Source: Candidatus Adlerbacteria bacterium
GTDB lineage: Bacteria > Patescibacteriota > Minisyncoccia > Phycocordibacterales > SBAW01
Assembly: GCA_026397405.1 (NCBI GenBank)
Contig: JAPLUW010000002.1
Location: 104,214-142,162 of the forward strand
Reading direction: 5' to 3'
Length of the DNA: 37,949 nucleotides
A model generated the notes under the pieces. It did no database searches. It saw nothing but the letters and a program-made list of their open reading frames with translations, and was not told where the DNA came from. Position numbers and translations under genes: made by a program. Below, piece by piece: positions 20,089 to 26,239 of the stretch (its first letter is position 1; every line of letters starts with the position of its first letter).

Positions 20089-20127
20089 ACATACAGTATA
20101 CAAAATATGTTAGAATTATTTTTATCT

Positions 20128-20562
20128 ATGAAAAAATATATACTAGGAGGCATTGTTGTAGTGTTGTTAGGCGGGTACGCACTCTGGAGCGCGTCACGCT
20201 CACAGACTCCTGCGCCTGTCGGCACAACGTCTATTCCTTCTGAAACTACAAATCCAGGCACTACTTCACAAGGCGCATATAAAGACGGCACCTACACTGG
20301 CAGTATTGGTAGTGCTGCACCGTACGGCAACGTTCAGGTAAAAGCTACGGTTTCCGGTGGCAAAATTAGTGCAATAGAAATGTTGGCTGTGCCACATGGC
20401 CCAGGGTACACCGACGAACTTAGTGCATCAACATTTCCAAAACTTGTACAACAAGCAATCACCGTACAAAGTGCAAAAGTTGATATTATTTCGGGCGCAA
20501 CACAAAACAGCGAAGGCTTCACTCAGTCACTCGCCGCAGCACTCGCTACTGCAAAAAACTAA
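20128..20562 (+). CDS. FMN-binding domain protein, membrane-anchored (NqrC/RnfG-like)
   Basis: MKKYILGGIVVVLLGGYALW anchor; GSAAPYGNVQVKATVSGGKISAIEMLAVPHGPGYTDEL...IISGATQNSEGFTQSL with the SGAT FMN-attachment motif. Confidence 0.88.
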   Translation: MKKYILGGIVVVLLGGYALWSASRSQTPAPVGTTSIPSETTNPGTTSQGAYKDGTYTGSIGSAAPYGNVQVKATVSGGKISAIEMLAVPHGPGYTDELSASTFPKLVQQAITVQSAKVDIISGATQNSEGFTQSLAAALATAKN

Positions 20563-20567
20563 TATTT

Positions 20568-21398
20568 ATGCGCGACACTCGGCTGATAATGGGCATGCCT
20601 ATTACAGTTGAAATTGTCGACAAGGAAACTGCACCAGAGACACTGGATGCAGTTTTTTTGTACTTTACAGAAGTTGATGAGCGCTTTAGTACGTATAAAG
20701 ATACAAGCGAAATTTCACAACTAAACGAAGCGCTCATTGCTAATGGAGGGGCTCCACAGCACGTCGTCCGTTCCACGGACCCCCGGACTGAACAGATTCC
20801 CAGAAAGGAACCTGCGTACTCGGATTTAGCTATGAGCGAGGAGTTGAAGGAGGTTTTTAAACTAGCAGAACAAACAAAACAAGAAACTAATGGTTATTTT
20901 GATATTACAAAACCGAATGGCCAGCTAGACCCTTCGGGCATCGTTAAAGGTTGGGCAATACAAAATGCGGCCGAAATGCTACTCGCCCGCGGTGTTACAA
21001 ATTTTTTTATTGACGCAGGCGGCGACATACAGTCACATGGCAAAAACTCTGGAGGTAAGGAATGGAGCGTGGGTATACGCAACCCATTTAATCAAAAAGA
21101 AATTGTAAAAATTATATATCCGCAAGGCCGCGGCATTGCAACATCTGGAAGTTACGAACGCGGAAGCCACATCTACAACCCTCACAACACTGCCGACTTA
21201 TTAGCAGATATTATTAGTATTACAGTAGTGGGCCCAAATGTTTTGGAAGCCGACCGTTTTGCAACCGCAGCATTTGCTATGGGAACGACGGGGGTAACCT
21301 TTATTGAAAATCTCCCCGGTTTTGAGGCATACTCAATAGACAAAAACGGCACTGCAACCATGACTAGCGGGTTTGAAGCGCTCACAACACCAGCATGA
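20568..21398 (+). CDS. apbE: FAD:protein FMN transferase
   Basis: MGMPITVEIVD, RFSTYKDTSEISQLN, NGYFDITKPNGQLDPSGIVKGWAIQNAAEML, FFIDAGGDIQSHGKN, GIATSGSYERG. Confidence 0.93.
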   Translation: MRDTRLIMGMPITVEIVDKETAPETLDAVFLYFTEVDERFSTYKDTSEISQLNEALIANGGAPQHVVRSTDPRTEQIPRKEPAYSDLAMSEELKEVFKLAEQTKQETNGYFDITKPNGQLDPSGIVKGWAIQNAAEMLLARGVTNFFIDAGGDIQSHGKNSGGKEWSVGIRNPFNQKEIVKIIYPQGRGIATSGSYERGSHIYNPHNTADLLADIISITVVGPNVLEADRFATAAFAMGTTGVTFIENLPGFEAYSIDKNGTATMTSGFEALTTPA

Positions 21399-22873
21399 AA
21401 TATATCGACAACTTTCTAAACCGCATCACCATGTACCGTTTGGCACTGTACTACCTCTGCCTGTTGCTTGCTGCAGCAGCAGTACTCGGGGGCGTCGGTG
21501 TACTTCCGTATTCGCCTTTCGCCATACTTTTTTCGGCAGCACTTATAACCGCAGTGTGTTGGGGCACAAACGAAGCGTTTGCACGCGCATGGAAGGTTAC
21601 ACCCAACATCGAATCGGTCTATATCACGGCTTTTATTTTAGCTCTTATCATCAGCCCTGTTTCCCCAACAGCCTTTGCAAGTTGGCCGCTGCTTATTGCT
21701 GCAAGTGTCATTGCGATGGCGTCAAAATATATTCTGGTTATAGGTAAAAAACATATCTTTAACCCCGCAGCATTTGCTGTTGTTGCCACTGCCCTACTGT
21801 TTGGAAAATATGCAAGCTGGTGGGTTGGCGGCACCCTGGCACTACTGCCGTTCGTACTTGTAGGCGGGCTACTTGTCGTACGCAAATTACAGCGCTTTGA
21901 CCTGCTCTGCGCTTTTGCCGCAGTAGCCGCAGTTGGTATAAGTGTTACGTTTTTGCCACAAAACCCACTACTGTCTGTCTGGCAAACTCTACTACATTCA
22001 TCACTTATATTCCTCGGCTGCATTATGCTCACCGAGCCCTTAACTAGCCCGCAGGCGCGTGTGCATCGCCTGGTGTACGGCGCTATAGTCGGATTCTTTT
22101 TTATCCCCCACGTTCATATCTTTTCCTTCTACACATCGCCCGAACTCGCGCTATTGGTGGGCAACATATACGCATACATAGTATCCCCGAGTAGTCGCCG
22201 CATACTTACACTTGTACGGTCAACACGCATCGCCGAAGGTATTTACGACTTTGTGTTTATGCCAGACACACCGCTTAGTTTTATACCCGGGCAGTATTTA
22301 GAATGGACGCTCGGTCACACAAAGCCAGACGACCGCGGCAACCGGCGTTACTTTACTATCGCCTCCTCTCCAACAGAAAAAGAATTGCATTTAGGTATTA
22401 AGGTGTACGAACCTTCAAGTACGTTTAAAAAAGCTCTACTGGCTATGCAGCCCGGTGCAACACTTTCCGTTGCGCAGCTTGCTGGTGAATTTACTCTGCC
22501 AAAAGACACAAACAAAAAACTGGTCTTTATCGCCGGTGGTATCGGCATTACCCCGTTCCGTTCTATGGTCCAGTACATGATCGATACAAAAGAGAGTCGC
22601 GATGCGATATTACTCTATTCTACAAAAACACCGAGCGAGGTTGCCTACAAAGAAGTCTTTGAAGCTGGCCGAAACGTTGGTCTGCGACCCTTCTATCTTG
22701 GCCTTATCGACACACAAACACTTATGCGCGAAGTCCCCGACTATAAAGAAAGGATGTTCTATATCTCGGGCCCGCTCGGGATGGTAACTGCATTTGAGCA
22801 CACACTAAAAAGCCTGGGTGTGCCGGGCAAACAAATAAAAATCGACTTCTTCCCTGGGTTTGTGTATATTTGA
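21395..22873 (+). CDS. NqrB/RnfD-like membrane domain fused to an FNR-type oxidoreductase domain
   Basis: N-terminal multi-TM with NIESVYITAFILALIISP and KHIFNPAAFAVV; C-terminal PGQYLEWTLGH, RRYFTIASSPTEKELHLGIK, FIAGGIGITPFRSMVQYMID. Confidence 0.88.
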   Translation: MKYIDNFLNRITMYRLALYYLCLLLAAAAVLGGVGVLPYSPFAILFSAALITAVCWGTNEAFARAWKVTPNIESVYITAFILALIISPVSPTAFASWPLLIAASVIAMASKYILVIGKKHIFNPAAFAVVATALLFGKYASWWVGGTLALLPFVLVGGLLVVRKLQRFDLLCAFAAVAAVGISVTFLPQNPLLSVWQTLLHSSLIFLGCIMLTEPLTSPQARVHRLVYGAIVGFFFIPHVHIFSFYTSPELALLVGNIYAYIVSPSSRRILTLVRSTRIAEGIYDFVFMPDTPLSFIPGQYLEWTLGHTKPDDRGNRRYFTIASSPTEKELHLGIKVYEPSSTFKKALLAMQPGATLSVAQLAGEFTLPKDTNKKLVFIAGGIGITPFRSMVQYMIDTKESRDAILLYSTKTPSEVAYKEVFEAGRNVGLRPFYLGLIDTQTLMREVPDYKERMFYISGPLGMVTAFEHTLKSLGVPGKQIKIDFFPGFVYI

Positions 22874-22926: not shown

Positions 22927-23259
22927 ATGTCGCAGCTCTACTACCAACTCCTGCTCGAAACGGGGCACGATGAGGATATAAATTACGAAGGGTGGTTTCG
23001 TAAACCTTCCGACCTTCCTTTTCCATCGCCTATGGGGACTTCGCTCGACGTTCCTTTATTCGGCGATGACCTTTGCGTCTGCACCTACAGCCACGACAAA
23101 GGTGCCCTGTATATGTGGCTTGGCACGCCTGGCATGACGTCCGGCGAGAGTACGTTCAGGTTGCGAGTGGTAAATCTCGCGGAGGCGCGTGAAGAGCTCC
23201 TGGACGAGGGGTGGGAGGAGATGGACAAGAACGACGAGCCCATCAAGCAGCCGGAATAG
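22927..23259 (+). CDS. Hypothetical protein, 110 aa
   Basis: Own promoter, SD GAGAGG and terminator; MSQLYYQLLLETGHDEDINYEGWFRKPSDLPFPSPMGTSLDVPLFGDDLCV... Confidence 0.65.
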   Translation: MSQLYYQLLLETGHDEDINYEGWFRKPSDLPFPSPMGTSLDVPLFGDDLCVCTYSHDKGALYMWLGTPGMTSGESTFRLRVVNLAEAREELLDEGWEEMDKNDEPIKQPE

Positions 23260-23285: not shown

Positions 23286-23324
23286 AGCCAAAGCTTCGTC
23301 TCACGACGAAGTGGCGGCTTTTTT
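23286..23324 (+). terminator. Rho-independent terminator, probably bidirectional
   Basis: AGCCaaaGCTTCGTC-TCAC-GACGAAGtggcGGCT then TTTTTT. Confidence 0.75.
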
Positions 23325-25005
23325 ATTTCCCTTTCGGCAAGTCCAAATGAGCAAAGGCATCACTAAAAGTGGTGCCTACTTTTTTACCGGGGTTAAAGAT
23401 ATTGTGTGGGTCGAAGATCTTTTTTATTTGCAAAAACAGTGCGAACATTTCAGGGCCAAACATTTTCTCGACATACGGTGTGCGGATAAAGCCGTCGTTA
23501 TGCTCCCCACTAATAGAACCGTGGTACGAGAGTACTAGGTCGTACACCTTGTGCGAAAGTTCGTCTATTATTTTTGCAGTGTCTGGGTTAGCAGGGTCCA
23601 CAAGCGGAATAATGTGGAAGTTCCCGTCTCCTACATGCCCGGCAACTGTGTACTGCATAGATTTTTCGTACGGTTTTAGAATGACCTCAAGTTTTGGTAA
23701 AAATTCAGAAAGTGTCCAAGGTGGCACTACAAAGTCGTCAATAAACGGTGCAGTGCGTTTGTTACGGATCTTTTTACGCAGCAGGTTAAAACTCTCACGG
23801 CGTATTGCCCAATATTTTTTACTTGCGTGTTCGTTCTTTGCAACACGGCTGCCAATATTAGGTTGTGTTTTTTTAATCTCTTCTTCTAACTCTACCGCTT
23901 TTTTAAGCGCCTCTTCTTGTGTGTCGGCACGGAACTCGACCATCAATACAAGTTTTGGGATACCGCCTGTTAGTAGCATCCACAGCTCCGGCAAAAACGA
24001 AATGCCAAGCGAGATAATCCCCGATCTCATTTGTGTTGCAAATTCAGGGAAATATTTTACTGCAAGTTTAAACGTATTGTCGTCGTATGACTCAAAGCTA
24101 TCAGGCTGTTTTGCAAGCACCTGCGGTACAATCTTCCCCAACTCTGAAAGCGAGTCCAAAAACAAAATGGTCATTGCCGAGCAAGGCTGTGGGTGCACCA
24201 GCGAAAATTTTATTTTGGTGATTAGCCCGAGCGTCCCTTGCGAGCCGACCATAAGCCGCCCCAGGTTAAGCGAATTGACCCCGTCGCCCATGTCCCAGAG
24301 CGCGTAGCCGGACGAATTTTTTTCCACCTTCGGCTTCCCTGCCTCAATAACTGCCCTGTGTGTAGAAATTAGTTTTGAAACAGCGCGATATATGTCACCT
24401 TCAAAATCTTTTTTATTTAATTTTTGCTGCAGGGCGTCCCCTTCCAAATTTTTAAGTGTATACGTTTGTCCGTCGGCAAGAACAACATCAAGTTCTTGCA
24501 CGTAGCGGGCAGTTTTGCCATATTTTAAATTTTTCTCCCCGCCCGAGTTGTTTGCTACCATACCGCCCACCGTGTTTATCTCGCGCGACGCGGTGTAACT
24601 TGGTAGTTCTAAGTTTTTCTTTTTTGTTTCTTTGTCAAAGTCTCGGAAGTACATCCCTGGCTCGACGACCGCGTATGCGGTCGCTCCGACCGAAGCGTCG
24701 GAGCTAAGTTCCAGCAACCTACTAAAATGTCGCGTCATATCCACAATGACCGAGTCGTTCAACGGCCCGCCCGACATGTCGGTACCAGCCGAGCGTGCGG
24801 TTAGCGATATGTGGCCGCCCGGTTTTTCTTTAATTTTTGTGGCGTATCGCACTAAAATACCGATGTCTGTTGCATCTTTTGGATGCACCACTACTTCCGG
24901 TGTAACTGCAAACAAGCTTGCATCGCGCGAATATGCCTCCAATGTTGCAGGCGCGTCTTCTACTTCACCGCGTAGTACTTTTTTAAGTTCTCCTGCAAGA
25001 GTCAT
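23323..25005 (-). CDS. FAD-binding oxidoreductase, GlcD / D-lactate dehydrogenase type
   Basis: LTARSAGTDMSGGPLNDSVIVDMTRHFSRLLEL, NTVGGMVANNSGGEKNLKYGKTARYV, GHVGDGNFHIIPLVD, FDPHNIFNPGKKVG. Confidence 0.9.
   Translation of the reverse strand: MTLAGELKKVLRGEVEDAPATLEAYSRDASLFAVTPEVVVHPKDATDIGILVRYATKIKEKPGGHISLTARSAGTDMSGGPLNDSVIVDMTRHFSRLLELSSDASVGATAYAVVEPGMYFRDFDKETKKKNLELPSYTASREINTVGGMVANNSGGEKNLKYGKTARYVQELDVVLADGQTYTLKNLEGDALQQKLNKKDFEGDIYRAVSKLISTHRAVIEAGKPKVEKNSSGYALWDMGDGVNSLNLGRLMVGSQGTLGLITKIKFSLVHPQPCSAMTILFLDSLSELGKIVPQVLAKQPDSFESYDDNTFKLAVKYFPEFATQMRSGIISLGISFLPELWMLLTGGIPKLVLMVEFRADTQEEALKKAVELEEEIKKTQPNIGSRVAKNEHASKKYWAIRRESFNLLRKKIRNKRTAPFIDDFVVPPWTLSEFLPKLEVILKPYEKSMQYTVAGHVGDGNFHIIPLVDPANPDTAKIIDELSHKVYDLVLSYHGSISGEHNDGFIRTPYVEKMFGPEMFALFLQIKKIFDPHNIFNPGKKVGTTFSDAFAHLDLPKGK
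24666..24704. repeat. Two adjacent perfect hairpins inside the FAD oxidoreductase gene
   Basis: CGACCGC-GTAT-GCGGTCG and GCTCCGAC-CGAAGC-GTCGGAGC, encoding SSDASVGATAYAVVE. Confidence 0.85.
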
Positions 25006-25042: not shown

Positions 25043-26239
25043 CTATTTCAGCACGTTCCAGATATTTTGGTCCTCGCTGCCGTCAAATTTAAATACCGCA
25101 ACACCTCGAACTCCTAGTTTTTTAGCAAGTGCGACTTTGTCTGCAATTGCTTGCGCGTCGCTCCACCACACAATGTTAAATGGCGGTGGCACTGATGTAG
25201 CCAATGCAGTTTGAGAATAAACGTCTGAAGGCGGCGCTGTCGTGTTACCGTTTGCAGCAACACTGCCCGGCACGCTTGCTTGGTCGGACAATGCTGCCGT
25301 GGCAGGAGTCGACTTGTAAATAAACGATAGTTCGCCTGCACTGTTTCGTGTTGGTGCTGTACCAAGCAAGGACGCGAGTTGTGTGGCGTAATTTTGGTTA
25401 AATGCCCACAAAAGTTTGTAGGTGTATCCTGCTCCATTTGGAGTTACAGAATATTCGTACCCATAGGTTGGCACGCCAATGAGTATCTTCTTTTTTGATA
25501 TAGTTTTTGCCGCGAGCGTAACGATATTTTCTACCCACGAAGGGTCAGCAACTGGCACATAGGGCGCTGCACGCGCGGCATTAAGCGTTGCAGATATGTG
25601 GCCCTGGTCGTACGCCATAATCTCGACCCGGTCGCAGTATTTATTTATCGCGACATAGTCGTTGGCATATTCCGTTGCATCTGCGGGAGGTGTCACGCCA
25701 ATACCATAGCGGTCCACAAGCGGCATGCGCGCTTCAATAGAGCAGTAGACCCATTTGTTGCCCATACGCTGGTACAGACCTTTTAAAAATGTAGAGAAAT
25801 AGTCTTTTGTTTCGGCATGCTTTGCTTCAAAGTCGATGTCGATGCCGTCGTAACCTTTTTCTTTTACAAGTTTTGCAATTGCATCTTCGAGCGCAATACG
25901 TTTTTGGGTATTACTCAAAATTGCATGTTCCGTGTCACCGTTACCCCACATAATTGTTGGGATAACACGCACATGATTCTTTTTTGCAGCCGCCATAAAC
26001 GACACCCACGGCTCGCCGTCCATGCCAGCTGCGTCGTTTAACGTGCCGTCTGTTTTCATGGTGTACACAAACGGACTTACTTCGGTCAGTTGTTTGAGGT
26101 GCGGAGTAACGTCAGCAATGCTCTCATTTTCATGCCAGTACGGCATCCATCCGCCAAATTCAAGTGCAACAGAAGGCGCTTGCGCGTGCGCAACAGTAAA
26201 ACAAAGCAGGCTTAAAGCCACTGAGAATATCCATTTCAT
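25043..26239 (-). CDS. Secreted glycoside hydrolase family 18-like protein
   Basis: Signal peptide; GGWMPYWHENES, YDGIDIDFEAKHAETKDYFSTFLKGLY, VEIMAYDQ, ILIGVPTYGYEYSV, GVRGVAVFKFDGSED. Confidence 0.88.
   Translation of the reverse strand: MKWIFSVALSLLCFTVAHAQAPSVALEFGGWMPYWHENESIADVTPHLKQLTEVSPFVYTMKTDGTLNDAAGMDGEPWVSFMAAAKKNHVRVIPTIMWGNGDTEHAILSNTQKRIALEDAIAKLVKEKGYDGIDIDFEAKHAETKDYFSTFLKGLYQRMGNKWVYCSIEARMPLVDRYGIGVTPPADATEYANDYVAINKYCDRVEIMAYDQGHISATLNAARAAPYVPVADPSWVENIVTLAAKTISKKKILIGVPTYGYEYSVTPNGAGYTYKLLWAFNQNYATQLASLLGTAPTRNSAGELSFIYKSTPATAALSDQASVPGSVAANGNTTAPPSDVYSQTALATSVPPPFNIVWWSDAQAIADKVALAKKLGVRGVAVFKFDGSEDQNIWNVLK

Follow-up and report, generated by a model that had tools for sequence, protein, structure and literature searches.

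Electron transport chains are said to be missing from Patescibacteria (PMC7507113), and a compact flavin cassette in one of them raises the question of where its electrons would go and how its carrier would acquire its flavin. The window, i.e. the whole stretch of 37,949 nt analysed here, comes from a Candidatus Adlerbacteria genome and encodes on its plus strand (20107-22873) an FMN_bind protein, an ApbE and a fusion of an RnfD/NqrB-type membrane domain with an FNR-type module. A first, sequence-only reading of this DNA suggested that the three genes could form a stripped-down membrane oxidoreductase, possibly ion-translocating or delivering electrons to an acceptor outside the cytosol.

Organization and genomic context of the cassette

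The cassette starts with the FMN_bind protein, an RnfG/NqrC-like carrier (20107..20562, +; 151 aa; assigned from Pfam, phmmer and a topology and motif survey), followed by a compact form of the FAD:protein FMN transferase ApbE (20568..21398, +; 276 aa; Pfam and matches to E. coli ApbE structures) and by the fusion (21395..22873, +; 492 aa). The latter comprises a membrane half with the RnfD/NqrB fold (aa 1-263, 21395..22183, +; AF2, Foldseek and motif scan) and a predicted cytosolic FNR half, FAD- and NAD(P)H-binding and NqrF/flavohemoglobin-like (aa 264-492, 22184..22873, +; Pfam, structure matches and AF2). The first two genes are separated by 5 nt and the last two overlap by 4 nt (ATGA), so the near-contiguous plus-strand layout was as first described. 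The same FMN-ApbE-fusion order was found across phyla in 80 of 125 homologous loci, a set with some truncated contigs and duplicates (some genomes, e.g. L065 = L135 and L071 = L141, were fetched twice), which excludes a chance arrangement and confirms the synteny that the sequence-only reading had suggested surveying in relatives. A promoter and terminator scan returned matches no more numerous than in shuffles. The gene at 22927 was rejected as a fourth operon member, as it matched no family and showed no match to its positional counterpart in the nearest relative compared.

The host genome comprises 638 kb in two contigs, and its named relatives are Patescibacteria, the nearest being a Ca. 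Adlerbacteria (L044) at 64% identity. Genomes were covered by sequence searches and through the stretches surrounding homologous cassettes. NQR2, FMN_bind and ApbE were represented genome-wide by one gene each, all in the cassette, and no PF02508 gene (RnfA/E, NqrD/E-type) was detected in this about 91% complete genome, where the controls matched. The absence of Nqr/Rnf A- and E-type genes, initially noted for the window, thus extends to the genome, and no full Rnf or Nqr accompanies the cassette, in agreement with a stripped-down oxidoreductase. A heme-copper oxidase (COX1) was not found in the genome either. Nor was RibF (FAD_syn or flavokinase domain), though several flavoproteins are encoded; this suggests that the host depends on imported flavin nucleotides, unless RibF is encoded in the portion that the assembly lacks.

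The cassette is flanked on one side by rarA, msrA and VKOR, which are divergent, and on the other by convergent genes encoding a GlcD/YdiJ-like FAD-linked 2-hydroxyacid dehydrogenase (23323-25005, -) and a GH18 family glycoside hydrolase (25043-26239, -), the latter found in the same neighbourhood in close relatives. In several further loci the fusion likewise had a GlcD/YdiJ-like homologue nearby, a tally in which one organism appears twice.

Structure of the fusion and of its FMN carrier

In the fusion, the Pfam model NAD_binding_1 (PF00175) scored 35.7 against a cut-off of 22, whereas NQR2_RnfD_RnfE (PF03116) reached 27.0 bits in the window protein, just under its cut-off of 27.7. The HMM check proposed with the sequence-only reading was thus passed by FMN_bind, ApbE and NAD_binding_1 and narrowly failed by NQR2_RnfD_RnfE; this last model matched 48 of 57 fusion homologues, and exceeded its cut-off in the genome search when the fusion was taken with its frame neighbours. 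As this score was marginal and the FNR half dominated the top 50 Foldseek matches of the full fusion (AF2 pLDDT 94), the membrane half was modelled alone. The resulting model (pLDDT 96) placed with RnfD/NqrB and nothing else: these proteins made up all of the top 15 matches among solved structures (best 8ahx_D, E 1.4e-6, TMq 0.72), the next fold appearing only at E 0.6. The C-terminal half resembled NqrF and flavohemoglobin reductase domains in structure matches. A motif scan for the [ST]GA[ST] flavinylation site in the membrane domain returned none among 57 aligned homologues.

The FMN protein matched FMN_bind above the curated cut-off (33.4 bits, E 7e-8) and possessed, in order, an N-terminal signal-anchor, a P/T/S-rich linker, the FMN_bind domain and a DIISGAT attachment motif. 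Since relatives start with MKK..., its start is more likely at 20128 than at 20107. The nearest solved structure, 8P2A (SaFMN3-D2; phmmer E 2.5e-14), is a domain of a Streptomyces protein with demonstrated covalent FMN, and the SGAT motifs of the two align; SGAT, SGAS or TGAT was present in 90 of the 98 FMN proteins surveyed, a set with some duplicates and a few wrongly assigned entries. Based on hydropathy and charge rather than on a trained predictor, the topology was N-in/C-out in 78/98, N-out in 3/98 and tied in 17/98, again with some genomes counted twice and some contigs truncated. This charge bias would place the FMN_bind domain outside the cytosol, as expected if electrons are delivered to an extracytosolic carrier, the second option of the sequence-only reading. 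Twin-arginine export was rejected, with a TAT flag in 0/98 proteins.

Overall, Pfam, AF2 and Foldseek bear out the three gene identities. The sequence-only reading had named as adverse findings a membrane domain unrelated to NQR2_RnfD, a defective attachment motif or a full Rnf/Nqr locus elsewhere; the analyses returned an RnfD/NqrB fold, an aligned motif and a genome with the cassette alone.

Absence of an export signal in ApbE

The sequence-only reading overlooked that ApbE has no export signal. The protein scored well above the curated cut-off of Pfam ApbE (PF02424; 143.4 bits, E 1.2e-41), matched E. coli ApbE structures (E 1e-18) and starts directly at the mature domain (MRDTRLIMGMPITVEIV); a signal peptide, lipobox, TM segment or hydrophobic N-terminus was not found in the window ApbE, a call likewise made from hydropathy and charge. 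A hidden upstream start preceding a signal was rejected: the upstream extension of 28 codons encodes no hydrophobic stretch and offers an ATA but no ATG, GTG or TTG. Among 85 distinct operon ApbEs, a hydrophobic N-terminus (17-residue hydropathy peak >= 1.6 near the N-terminus) was detected in one, with its peak within the mature domain, and the FMN proteins of operon loci served as an internal positive control, 85 of 92 having such an N-terminus. The best 30 ApbEs of the phylum sample, mostly non-operon, had no hydrophobic leader.

ApbEs of the main operon clade were also about 40 residues shorter. The spacing between two conserved motifs had a median of 57 residues in this clade compared to about 95 in non-operon proteins (pattern-based, with some rows failing), and Pfam model positions of about 75-120 were unmatched, i.e. 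a central segment is missing. The AD..AT catalytic motif was nevertheless kept in 83 of the 85 operon ApbEs.

A cytosolic ApbE is in tension with an FMN_bind substrate outside the cytosol. As ApbE has no export signal, the simplest reading that we propose is a cytosolic attachment of FMN to the C-terminal SGAT tail, which would cross the membrane only afterwards. The accepted order in Nqr, Rnf and Listeria is export first, then flavinylation. We put forward tentatively, leaning slightly against it, the broader idea that the cassette family, and perhaps all Patescibacteria, flavinylates in the cytosol and then moves a flavin-carrying or unfolded substrate across the membrane, with the shortened ApbE adapted to this task. 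If true, such an order would dispense with a flavin exporter. The missing signal in any case turns the site of flavin attachment to an exported protein into a testable question of cell biology, and it could help explain why flavinylation came out as underrepresented in the candidate phyla radiation when a survey selected genes by their signal peptides.

Distribution of the fusion and possible exchange of partners

A hand count over a phylum-wide sample of 380 genomes found the fusion in 62, one of them with a copy interrupted by a stop and another with an incomplete copy, so a fair share of these bacteria may export electrons across the membrane. ApbE was found in 44 of these 62 genomes compared to 39 of the 318 others (Fisher p = 1.6e-20, kinship uncorrected). 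The cassette was also present in Ktedonobacterales, Mesorhizobium, Devosia and Microbacteriaceae. Several of the non-Patescibacteria cassettes fell among Patescibacteria sequences in a tree with many weak forks and an arbitrary root, and this placement suggests transfer of the cassette.

Eighteen Patescibacteria fusion genomes, about a quarter, had no ApbE, and 16 of them also had no match to FMN_bind (PF04205, a profile that can miss divergent members), which indicates that the FMN carrier is not always the partner of the fusion. G425 (L123, L202) and G177 (L117, L203), both from assemblies rated 100% complete, possessed the fusion and an FMN protein with intact SGAS/SGAT and no detectable ApbE; they count against the explanation favoured below. 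An ApbE of only 160 aa was encoded in G191 (L124) and in L054, and the G191 gene looks broken, its Pfam match continuing in another frame.

Other proteins adjoin some ApbE-less fusions. Anchored cupredoxin-like proteins were encoded 5 bp upstream of one (L080:7529-8005) and 65 bp downstream of another (L073:6026-6523). Both have YHNH where the Cys of a type-1 copper site would stand; as this usual ligand is replaced, they were rejected as proven electron carriers and may instead bind copper. In L077, a fusion without FMN_bind and ApbE was directly followed by a DsbA-like thioredoxin and VKOR (L077:9545-10728). The fusion therefore looks like a module that can work with more than one outside partner, or alone.

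Proposed function and alternative explanations

The cassette is probably an Nqr/Rnf-like flavin electron exporter, working one-way and without ion pumping of the Nqr/Rnf type. This reading is based on the domains and folds, the retention of SGAT, the operon order, the joint loss of FMN_bind and ApbE, the association of ApbE with the fusion, the absence of PF02508 and COX1, the published model (see next Section) and the topology of the FMN protein. NAD(P)H would reduce FAD in the cytosolic FNR domain. The membrane domain of RnfD/NqrB type would relay the electrons through a non-covalently bound flavin to an FMN esterified to the SGAT Thr of the anchored extracytosolic partner, from which they would leave for an outside acceptor, which may be a metal ion, O2, a thiol or a host component. 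ApbE, the predicted agent of this covalent attachment, would load FMN from FAD onto the SGAT tail in the cytosol, before the domain crosses the membrane. In a fermentative cell, the cassette could serve as an outlet for reductant or as a source of electrons for a reduction in the envelope. The recurrent neighbours of the fusion, two-component systems and ECF sigma factors, with Nramp or ZnuABC-type importers in a few loci, offer a hint of a role in envelope stress or in the handling of metals.

Ion translocation, the first option of the sequence-only reading, was not supported. An energy-conserving mini-Rnf/Nqr would fit a membrane half homologous to RnfD/NqrB, yet the genome has no PF02508 subunits, which provide the return path, and this makes pumping unlikely; the covalent-flavin site is missing from the membrane domain of all 57 homologues, and an outward flow of electrons moves charge against the membrane potential that cells usually maintain. 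We regard this reading as highly improbable. It is also decidedly improbable that the FMN_bind domain is cytosolic, sharing its compartment with ApbE in an internal flavin reductase. The signal-less ApbE would be accounted for, but, judged by positive-inside bias, the domain lies outside in 78/98 proteins and inside in 3/98, the linkers are long and P/T/S-rich, and the homologous RnfG and NqrC are extracytosolic.

Two further readings concern the acceptor. An assimilatory reductase of ferric, cupric or manganese ions feeding a divalent-metal importer would agree with the Nramp genes found after the fusion in L052 and in L093 and L095, which are close kin, with the ZnuA/ABC-3 genes found after it in L060 and L061, with the replacement of the FMN protein by cupredoxin-like proteins (L080, L073), and with the VIT1 reported in six NQR/RNF-like clusters (PMC8238504). 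Metal genes nevertheless adjoin the fusion in only a handful of loci, two-component systems and ECF sigma factors occur beside it more often, and no metal transporter was among the scanned genes flanking the window cassette, so a dedicated metal role appears rather unlikely. Electrons for envelope redox repair of thiols or methionine sulfoxide are an improbable output. MsrA and VKOR are encoded upstream in the window and in two close relatives, and L077 offers its DsbA-like protein and VKOR, but the window msrA and VKOR are divergent with rarA in between, a leader of hydrophobic residues was not seen by eye in MsrA, VKOR usually takes electrons from DsbA instead of giving them, and the MsrA/VKOR link is not widespread among loci. 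The one-way exporter is the preferred reading; besides G425 and G177, the 16 fusion genomes with no FMN_bind match, the tension between a cytosolic ApbE and a substrate outside, and the missing RibF weigh against it.

Comparison with known systems

Contrary to what the sequence-only reading had implied, the arrangement is not new: two papers describe two subunits plus ApbE as 'NQR/RNF-like' (PMC8238504, PMC11334425). Meheust et al. (2021; PMC8238504) define the systems of this name by exactly this fusion within flavinylation gene clusters, report 127 clusters, mainly in Actinobacteria and the candidate phyla radiation, and propose that electrons run in one direction, from NAD(P)H to an FMN domain outside the cytosol. 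Huang et al. (2024; PMC11334425) modelled the Ktedonobacter pair, with a membrane domain lacking the NqrB/RnfD threonine. The window cassette shares with these systems two subunits plus ApbE, an NqrB/RnfD domain fused to PF00175 and without a Thr flavinylation site, and a predicted extracytosolic FMN_bind partner carrying a flavinylation motif in the same cluster. The passages on these systems in both papers do not discuss the signal-less short ApbE, fusion-only genomes or cupredoxin and DsbA-VKOR neighbours, and ApbE signal status may stand in their supplementary tables or figures; with this scope, the signal-less short ApbE, the loss of ApbE and FMN_bind, and the cupredoxin or DsbA/VKOR neighbours appear to be unreported so far. 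A literature search combining Patescibacteria, RnfD and FMN-binding added nothing, and one on ApbE with Patescibacteria gave no relevant paper other than those cited.

With the Rnf complex (RnfABCDGE), the cassette shares the RnfD fold, an RnfG-like FMN carrier and, by prediction, maturation by ApbE; unlike Rnf, it has no RnfA, RnfE-type or other subunits, a fused FNR replaces RnfC, and the predicted electron flow is one-way. With Na+-NQR (NqrA-F), it shares the NqrB fold, an NqrC-like carrier and an NqrF-like FAD/NAD module, but the B and F functions lie in one polypeptide, without a 2Fe-2S domain or NqrD/E. The flavin-based extracellular electron transfer of Listeria also relies on an anchored FMN_bind carrier (PplA) flavinylated by ApbE; there, the membrane module is Ndh2/EetAB with quinone, and the ApbE (FmnB) is extracytosolic, whereas the window ApbE has no signal. 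In this last respect the window ApbE resembles the cytoplasmic ApbE of Klebsiella, which has no signal peptide either and acts on a soluble cytosolic fumarate reductase (PMC12052999), whereas the substrate encoded in the window is anchored and predicted to lie outside.
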